This document shows positions 5,326 to 62,235 of a DNA stretch of 64,000 bases, piece after piece. How positions within the stretch are numbered: the stretch's first letter is position 1; every line of letters starts with the position of its first letter. The notes beneath the pieces were generated by a model. The model worked only from the letters and a program-made list of their open reading frames with translations. It made no database searches and was not told the DNA's origin. The position numbers and the translations under genes were made by a program. The stretch comes from Siphonodentalium dalli (lineage: Eukaryota > Mollusca > Scaphopoda > Gadilida > Siphonodentaliidae). The DNA lies in NCBI GenBank assembly GCA_032622095.1, contig CP136062.1, positions 195,121,887-195,185,886 of the forward strand. Direction: 5' to 3'.

Positions 5326-8110
5326 ACTAATTTGCATTCATGTTATTTCTCGTTCACACAGTTTAATGATAGAGTTAGTTCGATATTACTGGCAAATAAT
5401 CCAAGAATGGTTCAGTGAACACGAACCATTTGACGCAACTGAAAGTAGTTTGAAGTCGTTATCGATGTGACTGAAATCCGGCAATGGTGATTCTGTGAAC
5501 TGTGACGATGTTGAGGAAATCGGGGCTAATCCAATCGAAATTGGACAACTTAGTTGTTACAGACGCCTTAATCAAGAGTAGCAATCAAATTGTAAGCCTA
5601 GATAGTGTGTACCCCGGAGTCAAGATAACCAAAAGGTTGAGTTTGACCCGGCGATGCCGTTGTGCAGCGGGAACATAACATGGCCACGTTTTCAGCCATG
5701 AACTGACCATGATTCCATCGCCGCACTTCAAATATTACGCTATGCATAAACAAGTCAAGGCACAGCTTGCGAAAACATTGATAGAACCACGTTAGCCCCG
5801 TTAGGAATCACTGAACTAAATGGTTTCCCATAGGCGACAGTGTTAACGTTTCGGCCAAATTTACTGAATTGAAGCCTGCAGGCCATACCAGTGATGTTTA
5901 CCCAGCTAGATTGACATCAGTTGATCACGAAAATGCAATAAAAATCATAGGTCATGTGTTTACTTTTTAAAATAAATCCCCAAGTGTACGACAGGGCTAT
6001 CCCACAGCCAAATTTGATCTGGAAAAACCCAGAACTACAGCAGCTAGTTAAATAAATTTCCCGCTCACAAAAATCCATTCCCCCATTCATTCACCAGTTT
6101 AAATTATTTAGATATGATGTACAAATCAAATAAACGCGATGTGATCCTTAAATAACGTGTCGCATGCATCAGGTGAAGGTCATTCTTCAGTTACCTTCAC
6201 CTTTAGCATTCCACGGTGTACTTGCTCCCCGACTCTAGAACACATTTAGCTCCCTGATTCCGTTATGCACCAGCAGGAACGCATGCATTTATTGGTGAGG
6301 GGCTGTTCTCCACATAATTAAGTGGACTAAGGGTGTTATTTATGGCGAATTGTGTCAGGCATATGCGAAGTATGTGGGATTTTGATATTGGGGAAGCTGC
6401 ATGTTTTTCGACGGCTACTGCCAGGGTCCATCAATGTCAGATCACGAGCATAGACGTAAGACGTGCAGGGATCATTGCTGATTGTGATACCACCTGGGCA
6501 ACGTATGGTCATGGCAAATCCGGATCATTTAACAAGATAGAATCACCACACATTGAAACATAGCAAAGTGACAGGGCTAACCAATAGGATGTGGGTCGTC
6601 TCGCTTTGATGTTTCTTGTGTCTCTGTATGGTGGGCAAGATGGTGACTACCTCAACAAGTTACGTTTTATCAAATCCGTAGACATTGTTTTTTGGGTAAA
6701 TGACCACTTCATCCTCATAGACTCACTTCATTCCTCTCGACTGGCAATTCGTTTGGCTAATCTATAGTAATAGTAAAATGAATCAAACGTCAATTTCAAA
6801 TTTATATATTATACTGAAATATACAGAGCAGTGATCATTTCAAATTTTATATTTGTCAAAATGTCTTGTTTCACTTTTCATCCTCTAAATTCGACCTTTA
6901 CTTCATCCATGTCTCTATTTTCCACTCCATATCCTTTGTCTCCTACCTCTCGATCTCTAATACTATCTTTTCATTACGCAATACTGTTCTTTTCTGAGGA
7001 GATGGCTCCATATAAGCGCCTCGCGTACTTTCATATATAGTATGCTGGTGCACTTGCAAATCATTACTTGGAATAATATTGAAGACTGATCCTATGGAGC
7101 AGCTCCACTGGGGTTGGAAGTCTGAGAAATTAAACTTGCCCCCATCATGACATACCTTGGTTTTAATGTGCTGTTGCCTGTGGTGATTATCACGGGAATA
7201 ACTGCAAGAACACCGAGGCAGTTCTGGTCCCAAACGGTATCGCAGCCATCTTGACAACCATATAGCGTGTTTTTTTGTGGTTTTCCGTGCAACTGAAATC
7301 AATCTTCATGATAATCGAATGCCAGATGAGCATATCTTGTTGACAGATCAAATCGCATTCCTCAATGGATTTCTGATGATAGTGGGACATATTCATGAAA
7401 TGAGAATTGTACGGCCATTTTGGCCGCTAAGTTATGTTGTTTTTGGACGAAGTTCGATTTCTTTTGTTTTTTGGACGAAGCTCGATTTCTTTATGAGTGT
7501 TCGAGTATTATCATCAATTCTCTTCGGACTTAGTGGGTTTCCTGTATGATTAATGATAGTTTAGGGGTAATATGACGAAAACCCATATTTTGGCAACCAT
7601 CTTGGACGTCGTCTTGATTCCTGAATTTTCCCCAGATTGGATTTTCTTGGATTTTGGATATGTTAATATATAGTGTTCCCCGCGTCGAATGACTCCATAA
7701 TGTTCTCGGTAACAATTTCTTCCGGGTCCGATGCCAAATCAGACTCTACAATTAATGACGCATGTGTTGGCGGGTGTTGACCCCGAATAATGTTCTCTCA
7801 TCAAATAATAAATTCTCAATGTAAAATCGTGACTGATTGATATATGTATACGTGTACGGAATAAATTATCAATGTTTCCTCATCAGTGCACTATATTGCA
7901 ACATAAAAACATTCTCATGTTCACAGCGAACTCCTCAATTGGGTTCAAGGTCCAAATTTACGTTTTGCATAAATACAAACAAGAAGCGCAATGCACTTTT
8001 GCTGAAGAATTTCTCTGGAACTATACACTAAAGGCGACAACTTTCTTATATTGTCACCCTACCAACCGAGCCACAGAACACCCCCTCAACATGCAAACTT
8101 ACTGTAGTGT
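5326..8110. other. No supported gene
   Basis: No recognisable protein domain or RNA gene was found. The frames at 6333-6563 and 6943-7302 have no motif I know. A local duplication TTGGACGAAG(T/C)TCGATTTCTTT occurs twice at about 7442-7492. Bases 7621-7668 are the inverted partner of 1440-1480. It is probably intronic or intergenic DNA upstream of the GPCR exon. Confidence 0.5.
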
Positions 8111-9714: not shown

Positions 9715-9718
9715 TTAA

Positions 9719-10101
9719 TCCTTTACCCAACAGAAGGGCCCTGTGCCAATGCATTCTCTTATATATGCGAGTCGACCATAGGTCGCCTCGCATATATAAG
9801 AGAATGCATTGGCTTAACACATTAAAAATTATAAAATTGTTAAAGAATGTAAGAAAAAATGGTAAAAAGTGTTAAAAAAAAGATTTTTTTTAGGCCAATG
9901 CATTCTCTTATATATGCGAGGCGACCTATGGTCGACTCGCATATATAAGAGAATGCATTGGCACAGGGTATAACTGTAACTATCACAATGTGGTCAAGGA
10001 GCCGGTTCCAATGATATCCATATTTGTATGGTTTTATTGAGACAGACCGAAGATATTTTAGGCTGTTGAAGCTTTATTTGGCCGGTTTGTTGGGTAAAGG
10101 G
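9719..10101 (+). mobile_element. piggyBac-like MITE carrying a paired 67-nt hairpin module
   Basis: TTAA (9715-9718) precedes the left end CCTTTACCCAACAGAAGG, and GGTTTGTTGGGTAAAGGG runs into TTAA (10102-10105). TTAA duplication plus ends starting CCCTTT is the piggyBac superfamily signature, so this is a non-autonomous MITE with no transposase. Inside are two hairpins, 9746-9812 and 9895-9961, each 67 nt. Each has a perfect 26-bp outer stem starting CCAATGCATTCTC, one mismatch, a 5-bp inner stem (CGACC/GGTCG) and a 3-nt loop. The second is the exact reverse complement of the first. The module is bounded by CCCTGTG and CACAGGG. A full-length copy in the opposite orientation is at 16168-16498. 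Confidence 0.85.
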
Positions 10102-10616
10102 TTAATGTGCTGCAGTAACAAGATATTTCACCGATACCGTAAGCTAACCAGGGTTGGTTAGGATAGGATTATTTATTTACAATATACTATACAATATTAC
10201 CCTGGTTTTGTTATACATGAAGTCCTTATTTTACCATTGTCATTGCGGACTGCATTATGTATAGTAATATATTTACACACTAAGTGTTGTCATCACTAAA
10301 TCCAGCATTCTGATTGGTCGGCGCCCACGTGGCTAGTTGCAGTTATTTCTTGGTGAATGCGTAACGTCTCATAACACCAAGCTAATAACACAATCGATAC
10401 GTCATTAGGTTTGGAAAGACGAACGCGTAATGCTTTGGGCGCATTTTGACTCGCGCAGGATTGACTTAATACATCATCGGGTTTCAACATGAAGAGAAAT
10501 TGTTCCTATTAACTTTTGCCAAGGGTGCTATTGGGTATTTTGGGCTGATCTTGTCACGATACACTTTTCGATTTAAATATATTTACAAAAGCGGCTTTTT
10601 CGCTAAATGTATATAA
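10102..10616. other. No supported feature
   Basis: Low-complexity AT-rich sequence with no domain-bearing frame. I see no RNA gene or clear repeat copy in it. Confidence 0.5.
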
Positions 10617-14804: not shown

Positions 14805-16167
14805 GAGACTTCAATACCTTACTAGTATTCACAGATCAACACAATTTTTATAAAACCCGATTTCAAGACAACAAATAGTTGTTTTGTGAATAAAATACAG
14901 AAAACTGGATAAAACTGAAAATTGTATTGTGTATATTATTTGTCTAAAAAACATTTAAAGTGATGTATTTCTGACGAAGCCTACCGTTGTTCTCGGTGAA
15001 AGCTATGATATTGGTTGGGACGTCTGGTAAAACATAGCAATGCTTTTAAGAAATTGGGTTTTTTGTTTTCTCAAATTGTCCACTTCGCTGTATTTGACAA
15101 ATTCGAACAAATTGAGATTTGAACGAGAGCTCATGCGCAATCAAGAAAACATTAACGCATTAATATTCACGAAAAACCAATGTCAATGATTAAGATCTGT
15201 ATTCACCACTCGGATGTGATGAATTCAGTTGTGCTTTTTGTTTAGATATATATATACATTGGCAAATTAATCAGTCTCCATATAAAACATGCCCGACGAA
15301 AGACATGAAAAATGTAAAATTCAACAACTCAATTGGGGATATTATTTGCTTAGAGTAACATTTTGATCACTTAAAATTCCTCTAATAACTGACGCCATTT
15401 AATGTGCCCGATCTGTTTTGACACCAAATGATTTAAAATTTTCAGGAAAATGACAAATATATAAAACTAGCAGATTCGCCCGCCACTGGCGGCATTCGTC
15501 CCATGGCTTTGTTCGAAAACGCAATTGCAACAGCTTCCGAGACACGTGTGCTGCATTTGCAAAAAAAATCGTTGAAATCCGCCAGTTTTACCCGATTTGA
15601 CCTTGAATTGACCATTTTGAATGTCAAGGTCAGATCCTGGTAACGATTTGACCCGTCCAATACAGCAATAGGGTTGAAGTAAGAATTCTCAGTTAAAGTT
15701 GTTTTGCTCTGTGATTATGAGTGGTATGAGCTTCAATTTCTGATTGGTGCATGCACTTCAAGTTGTCAACCGTAAGCAATACCTGGAATCCCAGATGGTG
15801 GTGAACATTGCTGTCGTGTTGCATACTATACAGTAAGTCTGTTTTGTTGGAGAGAATTCCCATCAAATGTATATAAATGCATATATTATCGAGATGCTAT
15901 TTTATACTACCCTTTGTAGGACAATATGGTACTTCATTCTTTCAAGATGGCTTCCACGATGGCTCCCGGAAGCGACCCAATAGCGATTGTATAACGAAGG
16001 TGATTACTAGTTACATGTACTACCGATTAATAGCAGTTGAGAAATCACAACATCTCAGTCAATTGGGTCCGAATCGGCATCTCCAGTTTAGACCTTGGAG
16101 GTCAGCAATTTTTACATCAACTCGAGCGATGTAAACAGGTCGGTAAATGGACGTGTCAGTTGGTTAA

Positions 16168-16498
16168 CCCTTTACCCAACAAACCGGCCAAAAACGCCCA
16201 AATAAAGCTTCAACAGCCTAAAATATCTTCGGTCTGTCTCAATAACACCATACAAATATGGATATCATTGGAACCGGTTCATTGACCACATTGTGGTGCT
16301 TACAGTTATGCCCTGTGCCAATGCATTCTCTTATATATGCGAGTCGACCATATGTCGCCTCGCATATATAAGAGAATGCATTGGCCTAAAAAAAATATGT
16401 TAAGCCAATGCATTCTCTTAAATATGCGAGGCGACCTATGGTCGACTCGCATATATAAGAGAATGCATTGGCACAGGGCCGTTCTGTTGGGTAAAGGG
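16168..16498 (-). mobile_element. piggyBac-like MITE with paired hairpin module, second copy
   Basis: Exact TTAA duplications (16164-16167 and 16499-16502) flank ends CCCTTTACCCAACAAACC and GTTCTGTTGGGTAAAGGG. This is the cleanest copy for defining boundaries. The two 67-nt hairpins are at 16318-16384 and 16405-16471, separated by only 20 nt instead of about 82 nt as at 9.8 kb. Small differences occur: loop side TATGTCG in the first hairpin and CTTAAATATG in the second. The non-hairpin arm (AAGCTTCAACAGCC, ATATCTTCGGTCTGTC) matches 10010-10085 in reverse, so the whole element is inverted relative to the first copy. Confidence 0.9.
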
Positions 16499-17248
16499 TT
16501 AACCTGACCCGCCCATTTAAAAACATGTTCACTATATCGCTCGAAATTCATTCCAAACATGGCCACGGAGTTCATCCGGTGTTGAACACGTCCAGTGTTC
16601 AGTCCATTTTGGTTTAATCAAAACTATGTAGATCACCTAATTACTTCGCTAGATACTGGCAAAAATATAACAAGCAAAAAGCGTCACATGCACACACCAT
16701 ACATTTCAATAACAATATTATGCCCCATCCACACGGAAACCAACATAACAAAATTTTTTTTATCTGCATTGTCATTGTAGAAGTTCCTATACAGAGCATA
16801 ATATAATTCTGATATTATATAATTACACCAGGAACGTGGCTAGTGGGGCGCCTAACTTCGGTTCCCGCTTGCACCCCCCCCCCCACAACCGGTACTTCAA
16901 GCTTTCCAACCTGGCACTTACTATGTTTGGAGAAAAAAATCGTCAACTGATGGCCATTCAAGACCAAACATTTACGAAAATGCGAAAATATGCTATCATT
17001 GCTCTATAATTTTATTTTTTACAGTAAATACTGGTTGGAAAAACAAACTTTCCAAACAATCCTATTTTGGTCTATATTTTCAAATGATTTTGACCAAAGT
17101 TAGGGCCTCATCCGACCCCACCACTCCGTCTGTGACCAGGTTATATAACATCCCTGATAATGATTGAACTTAATTCCTGAAATATAATTTATCGGCAAAT
17201 TGGACCAATCATAAATTCAAACATGATCTGACTTGACCTGTATTTGAA

Positions 17249-17579: not shown

Positions 17580-17815
17580 GATACCAGTTTATTAAATTTT
17601 TAGTCGAGTTTTTCTCTCCAAAACTCGACTTATAGTTTGATGAGGGACGGTGGACGGGCGGGCGGGCGGTGGACGGGCGGGCGGGCGACGTGTTTTGCTT
17701 ATAACTCAACCGTTTATTGACGGATTTATTGTGTGAGTACACATCCATGCACGTAAGCTGCAGACAAAAAATCGGGCTCGTCCGCACATTTATTACATAG
17801 TTATGGCCCTTTGAA
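17580..17815. repeat. Leader of the tandem array (GTCGAGTTTT / GGACGGGCGGGCGGGCG)
   Basis: The sequence TTTAGTCGAGTTTTTCTC and the complement AAACTCGACTT form a small stem, followed by a GGGCGGGCGGGCGG block. It directly precedes the 161-bp tandem array, so the two likely belong to one element. It starts at the SINE target duplication. Confidence 0.6.
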
Positions 17816-18788
17816 TTTTCAGCTCGTTAGCGCGATAACTTCAACAAACGTTATCCGATTTGATTGAAATTTGGTATATAGGTGTTTCCCAAGAATATCT
17901 CGGATGAGTTCGAAAACCGGCCTGGTCCGATAAAATTTGATAGAGTTATGGCCCTTAATTAGTCATTTTTCACGAATTTTCAGCTCGTTAGCGCGATAAC
18001 TCCAACAAGCGTTATCCGATTTGATTGAAATTTGGTATATAGGTGTCTCCCAATAATATCTCGGATGAGTTTGAAAACCGGCCTGGTCCGATAAAATTTG
18101 ATAGAGTTATGGTCCTTAATTAGTCATTTTTCACGAATTTTCAGCTCGTTAGCGCGATAACTTCAACAAACGTTATCCGATTTGATTGAAATTTTGTATA
18201 TAGGTGTCTCCCAAGAATATCTCGGTCGAGTTCGAAAACCGGCCAGGTCCGATAAAATTTGATAGAGTTATGGCCCTTAATTAGTAATTTTTTCACAAAT
18301 TTTCAGCTCGTTAGCGCGATAATTTAACAAACATCATCCTATTTGATTGAAATTTTGATATATAGGTGTCTCCCAAGAATACCTCGGACGAGTTAGAAAA
18401 CCGGCCCGGTCCGATAAAATTTGATAGAGTTATGGTCCTTAAGTAGTCATTTTGTACGAATTTTGAGCTCGTTAGCGCGATAACTTCAACAAACGTCATC
18501 CGTTTCAACTAAAATTTTGTATATAAGTGTCTTCCAATAATATCCTGGACGAGTTCGAAAACCAGCCTGGCCCAATAAAATTTTATAGAGTTATGGACCT
18601 TAATTAGTCATTTTTCGTGAATTTTTAGCTCGTTAGCGCGATAACTTCAACAAACGTCCTCCGATTTGTTTAAAATTTGGAATAGACATACTTGCCAAGA
18701 ATATTTCGGACGAGTTCGAAAACCAGCCTGGCCCGATAAAATTTGACGGAGTTATGGCCCTTAATTAGTCATTTTTCGATTTTACCTA
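17816..18788 (+). repeat. 161-bp tandem array, six units
   Basis: Units begin AGCTCGTTAGCGCGATAA at 17821, 17982, 18143, 18305, 18466 and 18627, giving spacing 161, 161, 162, 161 and 161. Each holds ATTGAAAT, TATATAGGTGTC, CGAGTT(C/A)GAAAACC, GATAAAATTTGATAGAGTTATGG and TTAATTAGTCATTTTTC. The last unit is more diverged. The period is constant despite substitutions. No reading frame runs through the array. It may be the internal part of a dispersed element with the GGCGGG leader and the tail at 18789-18900. Confidence 0.9.
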
Positions 18789-20330: not shown

Positions 20331-20789
20331 TGTGACCCGCCATATCAAATCCAGTCGTAAGTCGGGATTTTTTTACCCTGTGCCAATGCATTCTCTTATA
20401 TATGCGAGTCGACCATAGGTCGCCTCGCATATATAAGAGAATGCATTGGCCTAACAATTTTTTATCATTTTTTTTAAATAAATGTTTCTTACAATTTTTA
20501 GGACATAAAATAAAAAACATCCATTACCCTGCAGGGAGCCCCACACAAATATAGAAGCACATAGAAGAGTGTCGCCTGCTCATGTTTGTCTGGGGCTCTG
20601 TATGGGTGAAATTATAAAATTGTTAAAGAATACAAGAAAAAATTATTAAAATTGTAAAAAATTGTTAGGCCAATGCATTCTCTTATATATGCGAGGCGAC
20701 CTATGGTCGACTCGCATATATAAGAGAATGCATTGGCACAGGGTAAAAAAATCCCGACTTACGACTGGATTTGATATGGCGGGTCACAT
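20331..20789. mobile_element. 459-bp palindromic element carrying the paired hairpin module
   Basis: Outer arms TATGTGACCCGCCATATC and the complement flank the same hairpin module found in the TTAA-flanked MITEs. Hairpins are at 20383-20449 and 20670-20736. The outer ends are unrelated to CCCTTTACCCAACA. Arms are complementary for about 119 bp. The centre (20500-20620) holds a second inverted motif, GGGAGCCCCACACAAA / TGTCTGGGGCTC. The AAATTGTTAAAGAAT spacer after the centre matches the spacer of the 9.8-kb copy, so the module moved as a unit or the ends were exchanged. Confidence 0.8.
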
Positions 20790-33290: not shown

Positions 33291-34480
33291 TGTTATTTGA
33301 ATTTGGACTGCGCCTCAAAGTTATTTTATTTTATCACGTGGCTTCCGGTTAGCAACTGTGTGGAGATTGCTCAAGCGCGGAAACGACAATGGACCAACGA
33401 GATGAAAATAAAATTGGATACTTCTCAACTTCCGGAGAACTCTTTCGTAATTTGTTGTCAATTATCTTCATTTAGACCAATTTCGTTGGTTAGCTTAGTA
33501 ATGAAAACCAGAGAAGACGTCATGGCACGGACACGCTTGAATAATAGCAAACAATGGACGTTCATATCTGGTCCATAACCTCTTATTTGACGTATAACAC
33601 TTAAGTTTTCCTGCATGCATCGACATATTACAGTCAATGAAAGGTGAAAAAAGTGCGAAATTACTATAATTAGTTTGAGGACTCAAGTGTAGTAGTCGCA
33701 TTAACGAGATGTGTAGTGGCAGGAGGTGTGGTGTGTGTGTCTGATTCCACCCCAACTTTGGTAAGCAATTTCAACAGTTGGAAAATTCCATGCCTGACAC
33801 AGCAACATATGGAAATTTCAAACCAAATATAGGTTGATATTATTGTTATGATAGTTTGATATTATAACCGATATTTACTGAGGAATGTGTGATTTCCGAC
33901 GAATAATCGAATATTTAACTGCTTTCGGTAAATTTTCGGACTGAAATGGTAATTAATTCAAAATTTCCAACCGTAGGAGGTGTTGCGTTGGAAATTGGAA
34001 ACAGTTGGAATTTGGAAACCTTGAAGTACCAGTTGGAAAATTACAAGCCAATGATGATGTAAAAATTATATTTCCTAAAGTTAAGACTTTTGATCTGATT
34101 CAGTTGTGTAGAGTTCGAAATTCCAAAGGTGGACGCTCTCAACGAAGACCCTCTATCCATGTCCCTGGATTTAAGGGTCAGACTCACGTTTTGGCAAAAT
34201 TATCTGGCATTTCAAAATGGATTGTCTTAAAATCAGCCAGGAATTTCTTTGTGAAATTTGGTACAGTCAATTATTGTGACACAATGTTTAAGAACCATAT
34301 CGACCCGAGAATACTATAACTTAATGTACTTTACTTTTATGGCATGACAAAATATTAAAAGTTTACTGGTTTCAGGTACGAAGAACTTTTGTAAAATATT
34401 TTTTTCAAACGTGAAGTTCATATATCGATATCCAAAGATCATGAGAGGAGAGTTAGTTATTCTTGATTCGTGAAATTTAA
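33291..34480. other. No supported gene; TTGGAAATTT repeat segment
   Basis: Bases 33720-34030 are a copy of the TTGGAAATTT family (ACTTTGGTAAGCAATTTC, CAGTTGGAAA). A 104-codon plus frame (34005-34319) starts inside it and runs beyond. It is rich in Lys/Arg and has no motif I recognise, so I do not call it a gene. Confidence 0.4.
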
Positions 34481-34544
34481 CCCTTTACCCAACAGAACGG
34501 CCCTGTGCCAATGCATTCTCTTATATATGCGAGTCGACCATAGG
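34481..34544 (+). mobile_element. Truncated piggyBac-like MITE, left end and half hairpin
   Basis: TTAA (34477-34480) and CCCTTTACCCAACAGAACGG lead into the first hairpin, which breaks off at CCATAGG just past its tip. The right arm, second hairpin and right TIR are missing. It shows that the hairpin tip is a breakpoint. Confidence 0.85.
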
Positions 34545-39146: not shown

Positions 39147-41225
39147 CTAAAATTTGAACCGCGATGTCGAGGTTATGTATAATTGAACAGCCCTAAATAT
39201 GTTCCGGTTTTGTGTACTATTCAGGTTAGTATCTCCAAGGAGGAGTTTCTCGAGATTAATAGTTAGTACACCAATGGTAGCGAGTTGGTGAAACAACAAA
39301 CATCGTTGATCTGTGTAAAATGGACAAACAAAAAAATAATGATTTGCTTCTTCGGCCGGGTGACCACAACGACAGCTTGGGTTGTCCGATATGAAGTTAG
39401 AAAATTTGTCACCGTTTAAATCGCTACAGTAATTTCGAAGTTTGCAATGAATGATGTTTATCGCGCGATTTCCGAAATTAAAATAGTCTGGTGGCACAAG
39501 AACTGGATCAGTCGTTAGGTATTTTGTTTTAAAAATACTAATGGAAGATGATTCTTTTATTTTATTTGACAGGGTATTCCATTCCCTAGTTGTATTTGGG
39601 AAAAATGTGTGTTCAAAATGGACAGTTCTTTTGAATGTGTATGGAGGAAAACTTGTTTTATCTCTAAAATCATATCTAGCAGCTGATTCTGGGCGGGTGG
39701 GTAAGAGATTGTTGAGATATTTAGGGGTCTTGTTATTAGTTATTCTGTACATGATATTCATTCTATGAGATTTCCTTCTGTTTGTTAACGTTTGCCACCC
39801 CAATTCTACTAGCAAGTTTTTCACAGGAACGGATCGCGTGAGACCTGTAACAATTCGACCCGCGTCCGCTTGGATGCGATCTAGTTTTGAAATAACATTT
39901 GCTGGGGCGGAGTCCCAGACAACGTCAGCGTAATCCATCAGGGGCAATATGTACGCTCGATAAATTGTGTCTAAGGTTTTCCTATTTAAAGAAAATTTCA
40001 ATTGTCTTAGATATGCAAGGCGGCCATATATTTTCTTTGATAACTCATTGATATGTTTGTCCCAGTTTAGGTCACTCTGTATATTCAAGCCAAGGTGTTT
40101 GTGTGATTCTACTTGGGTTATAGGTTCACCACTGAGAAAAAGATGTATGTCAGGCTGGGCACCGGTATAAGAGAATGTCATGGACTTAGTTTTACTACTA
40201 TTGAATTTTACTAGCCATTGATTTGACCATTTATCTATGGCTTTAAGATCAGTATTTACACCGTCCTCAAGGTCCTGGAGACTTCCATTGCTAGCAGTGA
40301 GGCAAGTATCATCCGCATACATTCTAGTGAAAGATTTAATATTTTCAGCGAGATCATTAATATATACCAAGAATAAGAAAGGGCCAAGAATAGATCCCTG
40401 GGGGATACCAGCGAGTATCTTTTTATATTCTGAAGACGTGTTATTTACCATCACCCTTTGTTTTCGATCTGAGAGATAGTCATTAATGAAAGCAAGAAGT
40501 GGTCCGGAAATTTCACATCGTTCAAGTTTATATACCAGTCCCTCGTGCCAGACCCTCTCGAATGCCTTAGATATATCACAAAATACAGCACATGTATGCA
40601 GTTTATTCTCGAGGGCCTGGCTAAGGGAATGGTTAAGTTCTAACAGTTGGAATATAGTTGAATGCCCAGGAAGGAAACCCGATTGGAAATCGTAAAAGAA
40701 GCCTTTGGTCTCGAAATGCTTAAAAAGATATTTAAGAACAACTTTTTCAAAAACTTTCGCCAGTGTCGGCAGTAAAGAAATCGGTCTGTAATTCTTAGGA
40801 TTTGAGCGATCGTCATTTTTAAATATTGGAATCACATTAGCTTTTTTCCATTCATCGGGGAATTTACACTCTTTGAGACATAATTCGAAAATAATTTTTA
40901 GGGGCTGAACGATGGCATATTTTGTTTCAAGAAGCATTCTTGCACTTATTCCATCGTGACCGTGTGCCTTGTTAGGTTTAAGAGATGAAATAGCTTCCAA
41001 TATATCTTCCGTCTTTACAGGCACATTACTAATGGTGGGGGGAGGTACAGCCTTAATAATGTTTGGTTTGGCGGTGGGCAGCGCGGAGTTGCCGATAAAA
41101 CTGTCATTTAACAGAGTTGCCTTCGATAAATCGTCGACAATAATTTCATAGGAATCGTTCCCAGTTAGTAACTTAAGCGGGGGTAGGGATCCGTTTTTGG
41201 TTCGGTTCAGAATATTATTAACCAT
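39147..41225 (-). CDS. Reverse transcriptase ORF of the CR1/L2-like element
   Basis: The 692-residue open frame starts at an internal Met (residue 1 is within the linker). Fingers/palm motifs: HGHDGIS (88-94), VIPIFK and NYRPISLLP (131-153), GFLPGHST (183-190), CDISKAF (216-222), GIPQGSILGPFLFLVYINDL (273-292) and the catalytic YADD (303-306). The thumb follows (HLGLNIQSDLNWDKHI, LDRIQADAGRIVTG), and near the end CRCGHPAEEANHYFFVCPFY. All catalytic Asp residues are present. It copies its own RNA at the nicked target site (family knowledge). The upstream endonuclease frame is separated by 141 bp with two frame changes. Confidence 0.92.
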   Translation of the reverse strand: MVNNILNRTKNGSLPPLKLLTGNDSYEIIVDDLSKATLLNDSFIGNSALPTAKPNIIKAVPPPTISNVPVKTEDILEAISSLKPNKAHGHDGISARMLLETKYAIVQPLKIIFELCLKECKFPDEWKKANVIPIFKNDDRSNPKNYRPISLLPTLAKVFEKVVLKYLFKHFETKGFFYDFQSGFLPGHSTIFQLLELNHSLSQALENKLHTCAVFCDISKAFERVWHEGLVYKLERCEISGPLLAFINDYLSDRKQRVMVNNTSSEYKKILAGIPQGSILGPFLFLVYINDLAENIKSFTRMYADDTCLTASNGSLQDLEDGVNTDLKAIDKWSNQWLVKFNSSKTKSMTFSYTGAQPDIHLFLSGEPITQVESHKHLGLNIQSDLNWDKHINELSKKIYGRLAYLRQLKFSLNRKTLDTIYRAYILPLMDYADVVWDSAPANVISKLDRIQADAGRIVTGLTRSVPVKNLLVELGWQTLTNRRKSHRMNIMYRITNNKTPKYLNNLLPTRPESAARYDFRDKTSFPPYTFKRTVHFEHTFFPNTTREWNTLSNKIKESSSISIFKTKYLTTDPVLVPPDYFNFGNRAINIIHCKLRNYCSDLNGDKFSNFISDNPSCRCGHPAEEANHYFFVCPFYTDQRCLLFHQLATIGVLTINLEKLLLGDTNLNSTQNRNIFRAVQLYITSTSRFKF

Positions 41226-41366
41226 TTTCCAAAAATACCTCGGGGAGTCTGCTGATGTTAGATTATGCTGAAGATTGTTTTCAAATTTTTTTCTTGCCTT
41301 TTTTTTTTCATTTTATTCAGGGTATTTCGCGCCTTTTTAAAAGTGTTCCAATCAATTAAATTTCCG
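41226..41366 (-). other. Frameshifted linker between EN and RT frames
   Basis: On the minus strand the codons DWNTFKKARNTLNKMKKK are found in one frame and FENNLQHNLTSADSP in another. The switch falls in A-runs (T-runs at 41283-41312 on the + strand), and another shift lies near 41370. Restoring one or two bases would probably join the frames, which suggests either very recent decay or homopolymer sequencing errors. Confidence 0.7.
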
Positions 41367-42350
41367 CTATGAATAGCTCAGTTTATCCCGTTTTCTCAGT
41401 TGCTTACGAATCTCACTGTTGAACCAGTATTTATCTTTCGGTCTGATGAGAACGACGCGACTAGGTATAGTTTCTCGCATAATAGTTAAAAAATCGTTAG
41501 TGAACAGTTCAACAGTTTCGTTTACTCCAAAACCTTTCGTCAGTTTAAGCCAGTCCTTATTTTTAATTATTTGTGATGCGCGCTGAAAATCAGCGGCTCC
41601 ATAATTCCACACGTGCCGTTCAAAATTCGGGTTTAAGGTATAATCGAGTTCCACAACTGCATAAGTTCCATAATGGTCGGATACCCCTGGGTCTATAACT
41701 CCCGAATCAATAGCCACAATGCCATCACTTACCAAGATCGGATCTATACTAGTTTGCGAATTGTCAGTTACGCGTGTAGGTTCATTAATAAGATTTCGGA
41801 TTACTAGACGGGCTTTCATTTCATTTAAATCCGAAGAAGGATCAAAAGCATTTGAGTTCAAATCACCTACCAGTATTACGGAATTTGATACTTTTAAAGC
41901 TAATTCTAGTGAAGTCTCCAGGAGGTCCCAGTAGTTAGGTGAACAGAACTGAGCTGATCTATATGACACTGCTAAAAGATATCTCATTTTGTTTGATATC
42001 ACTTTAAACCACATTATAGAGTCGTCAAACTCGAGAGATGGCTGCCTTTCTGACAATACTTGGTCAGAAAAATAGACACAGATCCCACCGCCGTTTGAAT
42101 CGCGATCATTCCTGATTGGGGGTCCATATCCATCAATCATAATATCAGATGATGGTAATGACGGGTCAAGGTGTGTTTCCGTGAAACAGAGAATATCGAA
42201 ATCGGTAATCATATCAACTATTTTTGTCAATTTGTATCGTATGCTCCTGATATTATAGTGAAATATAGCTAACGAATTTTCGTTGTTTCGATCAATTGTG
42301 CCCGGATTTGGATGCACATCGGACGACATAATAAGTGATAGGGCGGCCAA
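41367..42350 (-). CDS. APE-type endonuclease ORF of the CR1/L2-like element
   Basis: A 327-residue frame with the exonuclease-endonuclease-phosphatase fold motifs: HYNIRSI (31-37), FTETHLD (56-62), VGDLNSN (161-167), SIDPIL (201-206) and SDHYG (224-228). Near the start SSDVHPNPGT (9-18) follows a short hydrophobic run and resembles the DxExNPGP motif often found at the start of such proteins. After the endonuclease the linker reads KYWFNSEIRKQLRKRDKL. The frame opens with TTG, not ATG, and an in-frame stop lies 21 bp upstream. The enzyme nicks the target DNA for primed reverse transcription. Confidence 0.9.
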   Translation of the reverse strand: MAALSLIMSSDVHPNPGTIDRNNENSLAIFHYNIRSIRYKLTKIVDMITDFDILCFTETHLDPSLPSSDIMIDGYGPPIRNDRDSNGGGICVYFSDQVLSERQPSLEFDDSIMWFKVISNKMRYLLAVSYRSAQFCSPNYWDLLETSLELALKVSNSVILVGDLNSNAFDPSSDLNEMKARLVIRNLINEPTRVTDNSQTSIDPILVSDGIVAIDSGVIDPGVSDHYGTYAVVELDYTLNPNFERHVWNYGAADFQRASQIIKNKDWLKLTKGFGVNETVELFTNDFLTIMRETIPSRVVLIRPKDKYWFNSEIRKQLRKRDKLSYS

Positions 42351-42372
42351 AAAAAGAATGGTATTTAGTTAT

Positions 42373-44534: not shown

Positions 44535-44638
44535 GTGGAAACGATGGCAGCGATGGTAAGAGTTCCATCGTCACACCGAAGTCACACCGAAGTCATACGA
44601 CACCAGCGTTAAATGTCACAAGCCCAATGCCACGATAA

Positions 44639-44901
44639 CCCTTTACCCAACAGAAGGGCCCTGTGCCAATGCATTCTCTTATATATGCGAGTCGACCATA
44701 GGTTGCCTCGCATATATAAGAGAATGCATTGGCTTAACACATTAAAATTTATAAAAATTGTTAAAGAATGTAATAAAAAATGGTTAAAAGTGTTAAAAAA
44801 AGACTTTTTTTTAGGCCAATGCATTCTCTTATATATGCGAGGCGACCTATGGTCGACTCGCATATATAAGAGAATGCATTGGCACAGGGTATAACTGTAA
44901 C
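44639..44901 (+). mobile_element. piggyBac-like MITE with paired hairpins, right-truncated
   Basis: Left end ATAACCCTTTACCCAACAGAA, hairpins 44666-44732 and 44816-44882, then CACAGGGTATAACTGTAAC, where the match to the 9.7-kb copy stops. The right arm and right TIR are absent. The loop in the first hairpin has one change (GGTTGC). Its left half is nearly identical to the copy at 9719, suggesting recent common origin. Confidence 0.88.
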
Positions 44902-47455: not shown

Positions 47456-48485
47456 CGTTAATTCATTCCTGACGTCCAGTGATTTTGTACGGACAATACG
47501 TGTATTAAAACGAACTTTTAAACGAGTTGTTAAAAAATAGTATATTTTACCGATATCTGGCGATATTACAACCTATATTACAATAAACGTATGCTCACTT
47601 CAACGTTAACCCTTCCATGACTGGAGCTTGCTGAAATGTTGTGAAAACCCTGTGCCAATGCATTCTCTTATATATGCGAGTCTCCCATGGGGAGCCTCAC
47701 ATATATAAGAGAATACATTGGCCTAACAATATTTACCTTGACCTTGAAAGCCAAGCCAGTGCATTATCTTATATAGGGAGACTCATATATAAGAGAATCC
47801 ACTGGTACATGATCTTTAATTCTGCACCAGCGCAGCTCCCGTCGTGAAAGGCTGTAAAACTCTAACACGTGTAAGTTATATACAACGACATTTCGCAAAG
47901 GGTTACGGATATCCGTTCGTAGTCAAGAACAGAAGTTTCTACATGATATCGAGACAGCTGCGAACGAGGACATTGCTAAATTATTGTCCACATAAAGGCG
48001 ACTGGTGTACTTCTACTATTATCTTAATGTTCATATCCTGGTTGTGGTGAGGGAGGAGTCCGAGTAGTCATAGACTCAGATACATGTTACTCAGATAGCA
48101 ACCAGAAGCGTGTTCATTTCAGCTGATCAGATCTCCGGGGCCGCTTTGTTGGTGCCGAGCAGGAATTGTGTGGTAGCAAATATGCCCTTATATATATATG
48201 CCTCCTCAATCACAAGGTTGGTACAACTGTTTGTAGGAGTGGAACGCTGTTGCTAATGGATTTCTCTGACAAGGACGGTGCTATACTCTAGAAATGACCA
48301 GATTCCGTGACCGGCATATGCGATGCCCAGGTTCTATAAGTCTGAGGATACTCTATTACTCTATTAGGGGGCGGCATTAAGACAGTCTAGCCTGACTATG
48401 CCACCCCCTCGAATATACAATGTAATATTTGTCAAATGTATCATGCATTAATATGTGTATATTGAAATAAAATATCCTATCCCAT
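47456..48485 (+). other. GPCR 3' UTR with two candidate poly(A) signals
   Basis: AATAAA occurs at 47582-47587 and at 48466-48471. If the second is used, the UTR contains the hairpin MITE at 47606-47857 and a stem GGGGGCGGCAT / ATGCCACCCCC at about 48365-48410. If the first is used, the UTR is only about 150 nt. The choice cannot be made from sequence alone. Confidence 0.5.
47606..47857 (+). mobile_element. Divergent MITE with paired hairpin module, third end type
   Basis: TTAA (47606-47609) and CCCTTCCATGACTGGAGC face an inverted GCTCCCGTCGTGAAAGGC at the right. The first hairpin (47655-47721) keeps the 67-nt length with a changed inner stem (CTCCC/GGGAG). The second (47756-47805) is shortened to 50 nt. 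The outermost bases changed in pairs (CCAGTG with CACTGG). It sits in the likely 3' UTR of the GPCR gene. Confidence 0.8.
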
Positions 48486-52769: not shown

Positions 52770-53609
52770 AGCTTGACGGGATGTCAGAAATTGGGGATTT
52801 ACTATCTGAAGAAACAAGAACGAAACGAGGAACACGAACAAATTCCGAGTAACAGAATGACTATTTGGAGTAACAGGAACGGAACAAGGAACAGGAACAA
52901 CTTCCGACTAACAGTAACAGAATGACTATTTGAAGTAACAGGAATGAGGAACAGATATATAAGTTCAAATTTATCGCGTTTTACGATAATGCGTATTATA
53001 CATTACTATTATACATCATTCGAAAGCATAGCCTCCCCCTTCATGAATATTGCAACAATTAAACACTACCTTTGAGAACTAAGCGTATAATTGGCCAGGA
53101 ACGTCGAGCGGTGAATCGGAGATTAGCAAAACGTAAAGTATTCCGAGTAACAGAAATGAGGAACAGAGATATAAACTTAATTTTCTCGCGTTTTACGCAA
53201 TGAAACAATACACGTTCTACATCATTCGAAAGTATAGCCACTCCAATTCTTTAATATTGCAACATTTAAACACTTCTTTGAGATCTAAGCGTATAATTGT
53301 CCAGGAACGTCGGTCGGTGAATCGGAAATTAGCAAAAAAGTTTTTGTTTCCGAGTAACAGGAATGAGGAACAGAGATATTAACTTAATTTTCTCGCATTT
53401 GACGCAATGAAACAATACATGTTATACATCGTTCGAAAGCATAGCCTCTCCCCTTCTTTAATATTGCAACATTTAAACACTATTTTTGAGAACTAGGCGT
53501 ATAATTGTCCAGGATCGTCGAGCGGTGAATCGGAAATTAGCTAAAAACGTAACAGGAATGAGGAACGGAGATATAAATTGAATGCTATATCATTCGAAAA
53601 CATAGCCTC
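52770..53609 (+). repeat. About 200-bp satellite, direct-orientation block
   Basis: Units are recognised by GTAACAGGAATGAGGAACAG at about 52935, 53147, 53354 and 53549, giving spacing of 212, 207 and 195 bp. Each has CATTCGAAAGCATAGCC, ATATTGCAACATTTAAACAC, AACTAAGCGTATAATTG and GTCGAGCGGTGAATCGG. A leader of shorter GAACAACTTCCGA / CTATTTGGAGTAACAG words lies at 52800-52930. The block ends abruptly at the Gypsy LTR. Confidence 0.9.
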
Positions 53610-55800: not shown

Positions 55801-55815
55801 GAACCTTTGTGACGA

Positions 55816-56334
55816 TTGACTCGGAAAAATGTGTGGGACGAAGATCAACGAAGATCATTCGATGAAATCATCAGGTGTTTGACTAGTAAATCTTGCTTGG
55901 CATATTTTAATCCCGAAGCCGAAACTGAGATAATTGTTAACGCTAGTCCGGTTGGTCTCGGAGCAATTCTAGTGCAGAAACATTCAGGAAATATGAAACC
56001 GGTTGCATACGCTAGCAAGATTTTAAATGATACAGAAAAGATGTATACACTCAATTCGAGGCTCGAGCGTGAAGACATTGCTATTTCATGGGCATTGCAT
56101 CACTTCCGCATTTATGTCACTGGAAAACCTTGCAAAGTTGTAACTGATCATCGACCGTTGATGAACATTTGTGCAAATCCCAGATCGTGTCCGTCGGCTC
56201 GTGTAGAGCGTTGGTTGATGAAATTGCAAGATTTTGATTTTACTGTAGACTATAGACCGGGGAAATCAAACCCAGCTGATTTCGTTTCGAGATACTCTTC
56301 TGATATCATTCATGTATCCAAGCAGTTGGTGTGA
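55816..56334 (+). pseudogene. Gypsy RNase H domain (open but mutated)
   Basis: A 172-codon open stretch with VNASPVGLGAILVQKHSGNM, PVAYASKILNDTEKMY, RLEREDIAISWALHHFRIYV, TGKPCKVVTDHRPL and FDFTVDYRPGKSNPADFVSR. The first catalytic Asp (usually DASP) is Asn here. The frame ends at a stop before the integrase. It is the longest undamaged part of the element. Confidence 0.85.
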
Positions 56335-61198: not shown

Positions 61199-62235
61199 CA
61201 TTGCGTAATTTGTGAGAAATCTGCGACTTTCTACTAAGAATCTGTTACGTTCTTCGGGGTGCTAATTTCCGATTCACAACTCGACGTTCCTTGGCAATTA
61301 TACGCCTAGTTCTCAAAAGTATTGTTTAAATGTTGCAATATTCATGAAGGGAAGAGGCTATGCTTTCGAATGATGTATAATATGTATTGTTTCGTAGCAT
61401 AAAACCCGAGAAATTTGAGCTTAAATATCTGTTCCTCATTCCTGTTAATGAAGGGGAGAGGCTATATATGCTTTCGAGTGATGTATAACAATTATTGTGG
61501 CATTGCATGAAATGCGAGAAAATTTAGCTTATATCTGTTCCTCATTCCTGTTACTGCTAATTTCCTATTCACCGCTCGAAGTTCCTGGCCAATTATACGC
61601 CTATTTATAAAATAGTAATTAAATGTTGCAATATTAATGAAGGGGAGAGGCTATGCTTTCGTTTGATGTATAACATGTACATTCTATTGTTTCATTGCGT
61701 AAAATGCGAGAAAATTAATTTTATATCTCTGTTCCTCATTCCTGTTACTCGGAAAAAATTACGTTTTTGCTAATTTCCGATTCACCGCTTGACGTTCCTG
61801 GCCAATTATACTCTTAGTTCTCAAAAGTAGTGTATACATGTTGCAATATTATTTTAGGGGAGTGGCTATGCTTTCGAATGATATATAATGTATATTGTTT
61901 GAATGCGTAAAACGCGAGAAAATTAAATTTATATCTCTGTTCCTCATTCCTGTTACTCGGAATAATTTACGTTTTGCTAATTTCCGATTCACCACTCGAC
62001 GTTCCTTGCCAATGATACGCTTAGTTCTCAAAAGTAGTGTTTAATCGTTGCAATATTCATGAAGGGAAGAGGCTATGCTTTCGAATGATGTATAATATGT
62101 ATTGTTTCGTAGCATAAAACCCGAGAAATTTGAGCTTAAATATCTTTTCCTCATTCCTGTTACTCCAAATAGTCATTCTGTTACTCGCAAGTTGTTCCTG
62201 TTCCTATAGTTCCGTTCCTGTCACTCCAAATAGTC
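61199..62235 (-). repeat. Satellite block, inverted orientation 2
   Basis: About five inverted units, some truncated, recognised by TCCTCATTCCTGTTACTCG, CGCTCGACGTTCC, GCCAATTATACG and GAGGCTATGCTTTCG. It ends with the leader words CTCCAAATAGTC and AGTTGTTCCTGTTCC at 62160-62235. Two adjacent units (61310-61440 and 62040-62155) are almost identical, including TAGCATAAAACCCGAGAAAT, indicating a recent block duplication. Confidence 0.88.

Follow-up and report, generated by a model that had tools for sequence, protein, structure and literature searches.

The window, a 64,000-nt stretch of contig CP136062.1 of the scaphopod Siphonodentalium dalli (positions 195,121,887 to 195,185,886, forward strand), carries a hairpin module at six places. 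Modules lie at 9746, 16318, 20383, 44666 and 47655, and half of one at 34508. All six places had been located in a preliminary description made from the letters alone, and all were confirmed. The modules differ in their host element, named here by its ends: those at 9746, 16318, 44666 and 34508 have family A ends, 20383 has family B ends and 47655 has family D ends. The features are as follows.

9715..10105, plus strand: family A element with the module (CCTTTACCCAACA-type ends after TTAA, and TTAA on either side)
9745..9813, plus strand: hairpin 1 of this element, 69 nt
9894..9962, plus strand: hairpin 2 of this element, 69 nt, almost the reverse complement of hairpin 1
16164..16502, minus strand: second family A element, in the opposite orientation, 18-nt spacer, TTAA at both ends
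16317..16385, plus strand: hairpin of the second family A element
16404..16472, plus strand: other hairpin of the second family A element
20331..20788, no strand given: family B element, a near-perfect inverted repeat with TGTGACCC ends and a TA target duplication
20382..20450, plus strand: hairpin 1 of the family B element
20669..20737, plus strand: hairpin 2 of the family B element
34477..34544, plus strand: family A left end and half hairpin, broken beside the loop (nt 38 of 69)
44635..44901, plus strand: family A element whose right end is lost
44665..44733, plus strand: hairpin 1 of this element
44815..44883, plus strand: hairpin 2 of this element
47606..47857, plus strand: family D element (TTAACCCTTCCATGACTGGAGC...), old and diverged
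47654..47722, plus strand: hairpin 1 of the family D element, inner stem CTCCC/GGGAG
47755..47806, plus strand: degenerate hairpin 2 of the family D element, centre lost

The hairpin consists of a 27-bp outer stem, a T.C or G.A mismatch, a 5-bp inner stem and a 3-nt loop (nt 34–36 of 69). A perfect outer stem had been recognized, but its length is 27 bp rather than 26 bp, with an extra pair at the base (GCC...GGC), and the hairpin measures 69 nt rather than 67 nt; nine of the ten hairpins have the full length. The spacers are variable as described, and the approximate range of 20 to 220 bp becomes exactly 18, 80, 81 and 218 nt between the 69-nt hairpins of the four modules with two full hairpins. 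The search of the window with CCAATGCATTCTC at up to two mismatches showed 21 matches versus 2.23 expected, a number reached in none of 100 shuffles. The DNA fold of a single hairpin was −35.4 kcal/mol (z −15.6). In four of the five full modules, the two hairpins themselves form the arms of a larger inverted repeat (79, 80, 144 and 106 nt). In the RNA fold, the whole 230-nt module takes up this long stem instead of a pair of hairpins (−156 kcal/mol, z −26.9).

The window also contains other features. Two long open frames on the minus strand at 39147–42368 resemble a non-LTR retrotransposon by eye (reverse-transcriptase-like and endonuclease-like), and the open frame at 55813–56334 resembles, also by eye, the RNase H stretch of a Gypsy-type retrotransposon. 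Tandem arrays lie at 17813–18777 (period 161 nt) and at 52934–53552 and 61555–62165 (period 207 nt each).

Host families and copy number

The genome around the window comprises 2.227 Gb in 9 contigs. The genome-wide search for the 27-nt arm with at most three mismatches showed 479,036 matches (240,072 forward and 238,964 reverse), a density of one per 4.6 kb, and no match to a control pattern. Since each module has four arms, this corresponds to approximately 120,000 module equivalents. Pattern counts gave at least 51,426 family A flanks and at least 26,277 family B ends in the genome. Exact-pattern scans of viral_contigs, from which records near the window's genome may be missing, showed no match.

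The window and twenty 10-kb stretches of contig C1, the latter selected for a perfect arm, were read (264 kb) and contained 49 hairpin clusters. Classified by their ends, 18 clusters belong to family A (one also loosely to family E), 12 to family B, 10 to family D and 2 to family E. Families with unrelated ends thus host 42 of the 49 clusters, and the earlier view of the hairpin pair as an internal module common to different elements held, with four sets of ends. The other seven clusters show none of these end sets, which limits the shared-core reading given below. On contig C1 at 0.72–0.91 Mb (L010–L030), arm spacing showed tandem arrays with periods of approximately 14.5 kb and 11.2 kb and modules in each repeat.

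Family A ends are TTAA followed by CCCTTTACCCAACA. Family D ends are TTAACCCTTTCATGACGGGAGC and TTAACCCTTCCATGACTGGAGC, and family E, which has a single hairpin, ends in TTAACCCTTT(C/G)AGTGCCAGG. Family B has TGTGACCCGCCATATC on both sides. The elements read are about 240 to 480 bp long, apart from one family D element of 924 bp. The family A end table had 24 rows, of which three lacked an end; in the 21 copies with both ends seen, TTAA flanked both sides in 15, and six deviated at one or both ends. Family D and E ends, read end by end without a tally, mostly begin with TTAACCC. The terminal motif CC[C/T]T, a hallmark of the class according to excerpts of PMC2872659, is present as CCCTTT in A, CCCTTT or CCCTTC in D and CCCTTT in E, with some copies mutated. 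By their TTAA ends and CC[C/T]T termini, families A, D and E are MITEs of the piggyBac/TTAA class. A TTAA target duplication is absent from family B, in which six of seven copies have identical 2-bp flanks of TA, TT or AA.

The shared part of the elements is larger than the hairpin. CCCTGT or a close variant precedes the hairpin, and an AT-rich linker lies inward of it. The linker motif TTTTTCTTACATTCTTTAACAAT is exact in one A and one D copy and has two differences in B and three in each of two E copies; a search of the 31-nt spacer in the window's family D element did not find it. Since CCCTGT and the linker motif are also common to the families, the shared unit exceeds the hairpin alone. 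By eye, the inner stem differs between families, being CTCCC/GGGAG in D versus CGACC/GGTCG in A, and both versions pair.

A TTAA MITE with family E ends, without the hairpin and with a different interior, is present at L048:2240–2388 and L051:758–905, and both copies are palindromic. L007:2014–2201, read at its ends alone, is likely a further hairpin-free MITE with family E ends. The search gave no true empty site for any host family, and the sole hairpin-free relative found is this MITE with E ends, whose interior is wholly different. The spacer middle of family B (GAGCCCCACACA...GGGGCTCTGTATGGG; window ~20530–20620, L050:7660–7806 and L048:4579) resembles by eye the TTAA family TTAACCCTTTATAGAGCCCCACATA, a resemblance that suggests nested capture. 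At L044:5026–5125 and 6240–6335, arms lie beside family B ends and the apex enters a run of GCC/GGC triplets, at least tens of nt long.

The copies of family A are similar to each other. The rows of the family A search against the L041 copy showed 86 to 98.5% identity, the majority at least 94% (duplicates included), and the window element at 9715..10105 has 96% identity to this copy across 396 nt. The preliminary description had asked whether all copies are recent segmental duplicates. This does not apply to most aligned family A copies, whose flanking DNA differs, but some rows share it (L011/L017/L029, L048/L054 and L053/L055).

The genome profile search for the piggyBac transposase (PF13843) showed at least 128 matches, some genes giving two. 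Many of them sit in open frames of about 500–720 aa, so that movement in trans is plausible for families A, D and E. The probable movers of these families, acting in trans, are the genome's own piggyBac transposases. Five of the 128 matches were inspected over 351 bp on the 3′ side each, where element termini were not located, and no TTAACCC end, shared end or hairpin was seen in these spans. An autonomous element with TTAACCCTTTACCCAACA or TTAACCCTTTCATGAC ends would identify the mover, and hairpins inside it would show the origin of the core.

Divergence, pairing and breakage of the hairpins

The hairpin pair is most likely a passenger of ordinary transposons and not a new functional RNA. 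Its conservation was examined in alignments of 20 family A copies (four of 24 were removed as duplicates) and 10 family B copies. Private substitutions in family A were 11/2,148 in the outer stem versus 64/4,938 in flanks and spacer (p = 0.002), and in family B 10/1,080 versus 63/3,003 (p = 0.011). The outer-stem rate is approximately 0.4 of the rest in both families, where private refers to the 20 or 10 copies sampled from many thousands, and some of these changes are therefore older source-lineage differences. Shared substitutions in the outer stem were 0/2,148 in A and 0/1,080 in B, versus 94/4,938 and 19/3,003 in flanks and spacers. The inner stem was not slowed (9/395 in A, 6/200 in B). 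Exclusion of CpG sites changed the A and B rates little, and the simulated bias from choosing loci by a perfect arm was small at these rates.

The genome-wide count, in which copies were not chosen by the hairpin, pointed in the same direction. Among 18,480 family A flanks, the 27-nt arm was intact in 15,535 (84.1%) and the adjacent 27-nt flank in 13,496 (73.0%); the next 15 nt were intact in 13,571 of the 15,535 arm-keeping copies. The loss per nt was 1.16% in the flank, 0.64% in the arm and 0.90% in the next 15 nt, with one family A flank variant counted and part of the flank loss being source-lineage differences. The conservation of the hairpins largely reflects the youth of the families. 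Because the arm is better kept than the flank across the genome, youth alone is insufficient. The hint of function is confined to the conservation of the outer stem in source copies.

This hint bears on an explanation that is compatible with the shared core. The outer stem might be a working part of transposition, either a subterminal binding site or a strand-folding signal, so that sources with a damaged stem stop moving and intact stems alone spread. The absence of shared outer-stem substitutions, the slower private and genome-wide loss with an unslowed inner stem, and the same stem under four sets of ends all argue for such a role. It is opposed by the family E copies with one hairpin only, by family B, whose stem is the same although its ends are of another kind, by the spread of the hairpin-free TTAA MITE with E ends, and by the pairing data below. 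We consider this role possible, at odds clearly short of even.

The pairing test gave no indication that selection maintains base pairing. It showed 38 changed pairs in A and B together. None was compensated; two were changed on both sides and both were broken, and 11 still paired after a one-sided change. The built-in mismatch was kept in 59/59 hairpins (39/39 in A and 20/20 in B), which makes correction between the two arms of one hairpin unlikely.

The loss of hairpins showed a pattern of its own. Among 165 arms with at most one mismatch, 17 had no partner arm, and in 14 of these the hairpin match ended at nt 34–40, at or beside the loop (p about 5e-9 against an even spread). When each event was counted once (shared events in L037/L039 and in pairs in L001, L032 and L044), the proportion was 10/13 (p about 3e-6). 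The half module of the window at 34508 is one of these loop-centred breaks. Such breaks would be expected if an extruded hairpin is cleaved or if slippage occurs there. With its hundreds of thousands of stems, this single genome offers a natural experiment on the breakage of hairpin DNA, and the losses are centred on the loop.

Family D is old and behaved differently from A and B. In 16 D ends, the arm differed from the A/B arm by 7.4% and the outer flank from the D consensus by 9.0% (p = 0.27); these ends were hand-picked from the end list, ends without a readable hairpin were omitted and the local alignment drops badly damaged parts. A slower outer stem was thus found in the young families A and B and not in D as a whole. 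The 11 D ends whose inner stem is D-type differed by 9.3% in the arm and 7.7% in the flank (p = 0.38). The preliminary description had taken hairpins that diverge as fast as spacers as evidence against its view; scored against flanks, the old D copies show such divergence and the A and B copies do not. Equal decay of arm and flank in these 11 ends means that the hairpins are not kept copy by copy. The internal conservation had been taken to suggest function or frequent gene conversion. Upkeep of the structure in each copy is not supported, given the uncompensated pairs, the decay in old D and the lack of an Rfam match at gathering score in the window, and exchange or conversion of the core is possible in five D ends.

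These five ends (three elements) have an A-type inner stem. Their arm differed by 3.2% and their flank by 11.9% (p = 0.0003), where the split by inner stem was made after seeing the data; the contrast is inflated because the flanks of this group were scored against the other D lineage. The candidate replaced cores, with an A-type inner stem and young arms, are at L042:2408–2883, L008:1451–2374 and L022:2309. The A-type D ends look like a young core under old ends, reached by exchange, conversion or a separate D lineage, and the difference between arm and flank fits a core exchanged into old ends.

The same split raises the odds of ectopic gene conversion, in which exchange of sequence among hundreds of thousands of copies would keep the stem uniform. 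The stem is identical in A, B and E though the flanks differ, and the slower private divergence of the outer stem is also in favour. On the other side, the linkers look family-specific by eye in A and B, though B ends are missing from one or both sides of a few B-type linkers. Every hairpin keeps the mismatch, a change in one arm has no counterpart in the other arm, and the 11 D-type ends have not been homogenized. We regard conversion as the rather unlikely cause of the uniformity.

Mobility of the module itself was examined at its edges. The hairpin pair could be a mobile element of its own that inserts into MITEs by means of a hairpin-recognizing enzyme. The only good sign is the stand-alone copy at L060/L061, whose two T-run edges carry a direct repeat of 15 bp; the module at L049 without B ends on either side and the CCCTGT edge, identical in the families read, also agree with such mobility. 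L060/L061 is the single candidate with a direct repeat among the ten that were fetched, and no target duplication was seen by eye around the module in A, D or E. TTAA preceded CCCTGT in 0/92 complete contexts, and TTAA was rejected as the target of the module. We doubt this explanation. A stronger form of it is a long shot: a mobile cassette, the eukaryotic counterpart of bacterial REPINs, that moves between transposon classes and equips its hosts for massive amplification. If it were true, the cassette would have left its insertion mark in the 15-bp duplication at L060/L061 and its footprints in the young cores of old D ends.

The candidates came from 2,521 T-run edges matching a pattern meant to exclude family B. 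Many of 100 listed edges read A plus nine T, as family B with a longer T run would, so they may belong to that family. One fetched candidate (L058/L059) is a complete B element, and four have B sequence on at least one side (L062/L063, L064/L065, L070/L071 and L074/L075). In L066/L067 and L068/L069, no module was seen on the far side, where one was expected. The flank copies are inverted in L072/L073 (12 nt) and in L056/L057 (shorter).

That the hairpins yield small RNAs or double-stranded RNA serving the host is very improbable, since the very stable fold of the 230-nt module is set against zero Rfam families at gathering score within the window, the lack of compensatory changes in A and B, and the decay of old D-type copies at the rate of their flanks. 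An RNA function was rejected on the missing Rfam match in the window and the lack of compensation.

Probable shared core and comparison with known systems

We favour, as the likely explanation, a hairpin-pair core that became common to several MITE families by exchange and was amplified in trans. On this view, a group of non-autonomous DNA transposons (MITEs) would have the module as their common core, with the structure [CCCTGT - 69-nt hairpin - AT-rich linker - 69-nt hairpin - ACAGGG] and half of this core in family E. The core would sit inside unrelated outer ends, of which A, D and E are of the TTAA class and piggyBac type. The core may have switched between end sets, probably by template switching or recombination during repair, aided by the long inverted repeats. 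The near-identity of the hairpins would result from the recent spread of A and B (and of E, by eye) from source copies that kept the outer stem unchanged. After insertion, the copies would decay, often by breaks at the hairpin loop. Whether an internal hairpin helps the amplification of a MITE is a testable question.

Helitrons and Helentrons (DINE-1 and elements of bivalves) are short non-coding elements with hairpins and tandem-repeat cores, and have been reported from bivalves. To our knowledge, Helitrons lack target duplications and terminal inverted repeats; families A and B have both, which argues against their being Helitrons. The double-hairpin elements of fungal mitochondria are small, G+C-rich dispersed units of two adjacent hairpins. 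They share with the module two hairpins side by side.

According to excerpts of PMC3116915, REPINs are short non-autonomous bacterial units of two inverted palindromes and a spacer, tied to RAYT transposases. The likeness to the module, as far as these excerpts go, is of layout only, and the elements that contain the copies here have TTAA or a 2-bp repeat as flanks.

The paper on the CMITEs of Acropora (PMC2872659) was the only one found in the literature to describe an arrangement of this kind, and this module itself was not found in print. In excerpts of that paper, CMITEs are TTAA/piggyBac-class families with differing terminal repeats (mostly CCCTTT...) and an internal region, its origin unknown, that is more conserved than the ends; tandem arrays are also reported. 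The elements are approximately 100 bp long with a 75-base core, and each family has an estimated 18 to 737 copies in A. millepora (PMC2872659). The module resembles CMITEs in having one shared internal region under different terminal repeats. It is alike in kind of arrangement, by comparison of descriptions in excerpts that do not show the fold of the coral core. Here, in contrast, two 69-nt hairpins and an AT-rich linker make up the core, there are approximately 120,000 module equivalents, and one host is not of the TTAA class. Relative to the CMITEs as described in these excerpts, the new features are a core of paired hairpins, the scale and a host family outside the TTAA class. The module is a further case, far larger than that of the coral, of one core under differing MITE ends, and this core is a defined DNA structure.
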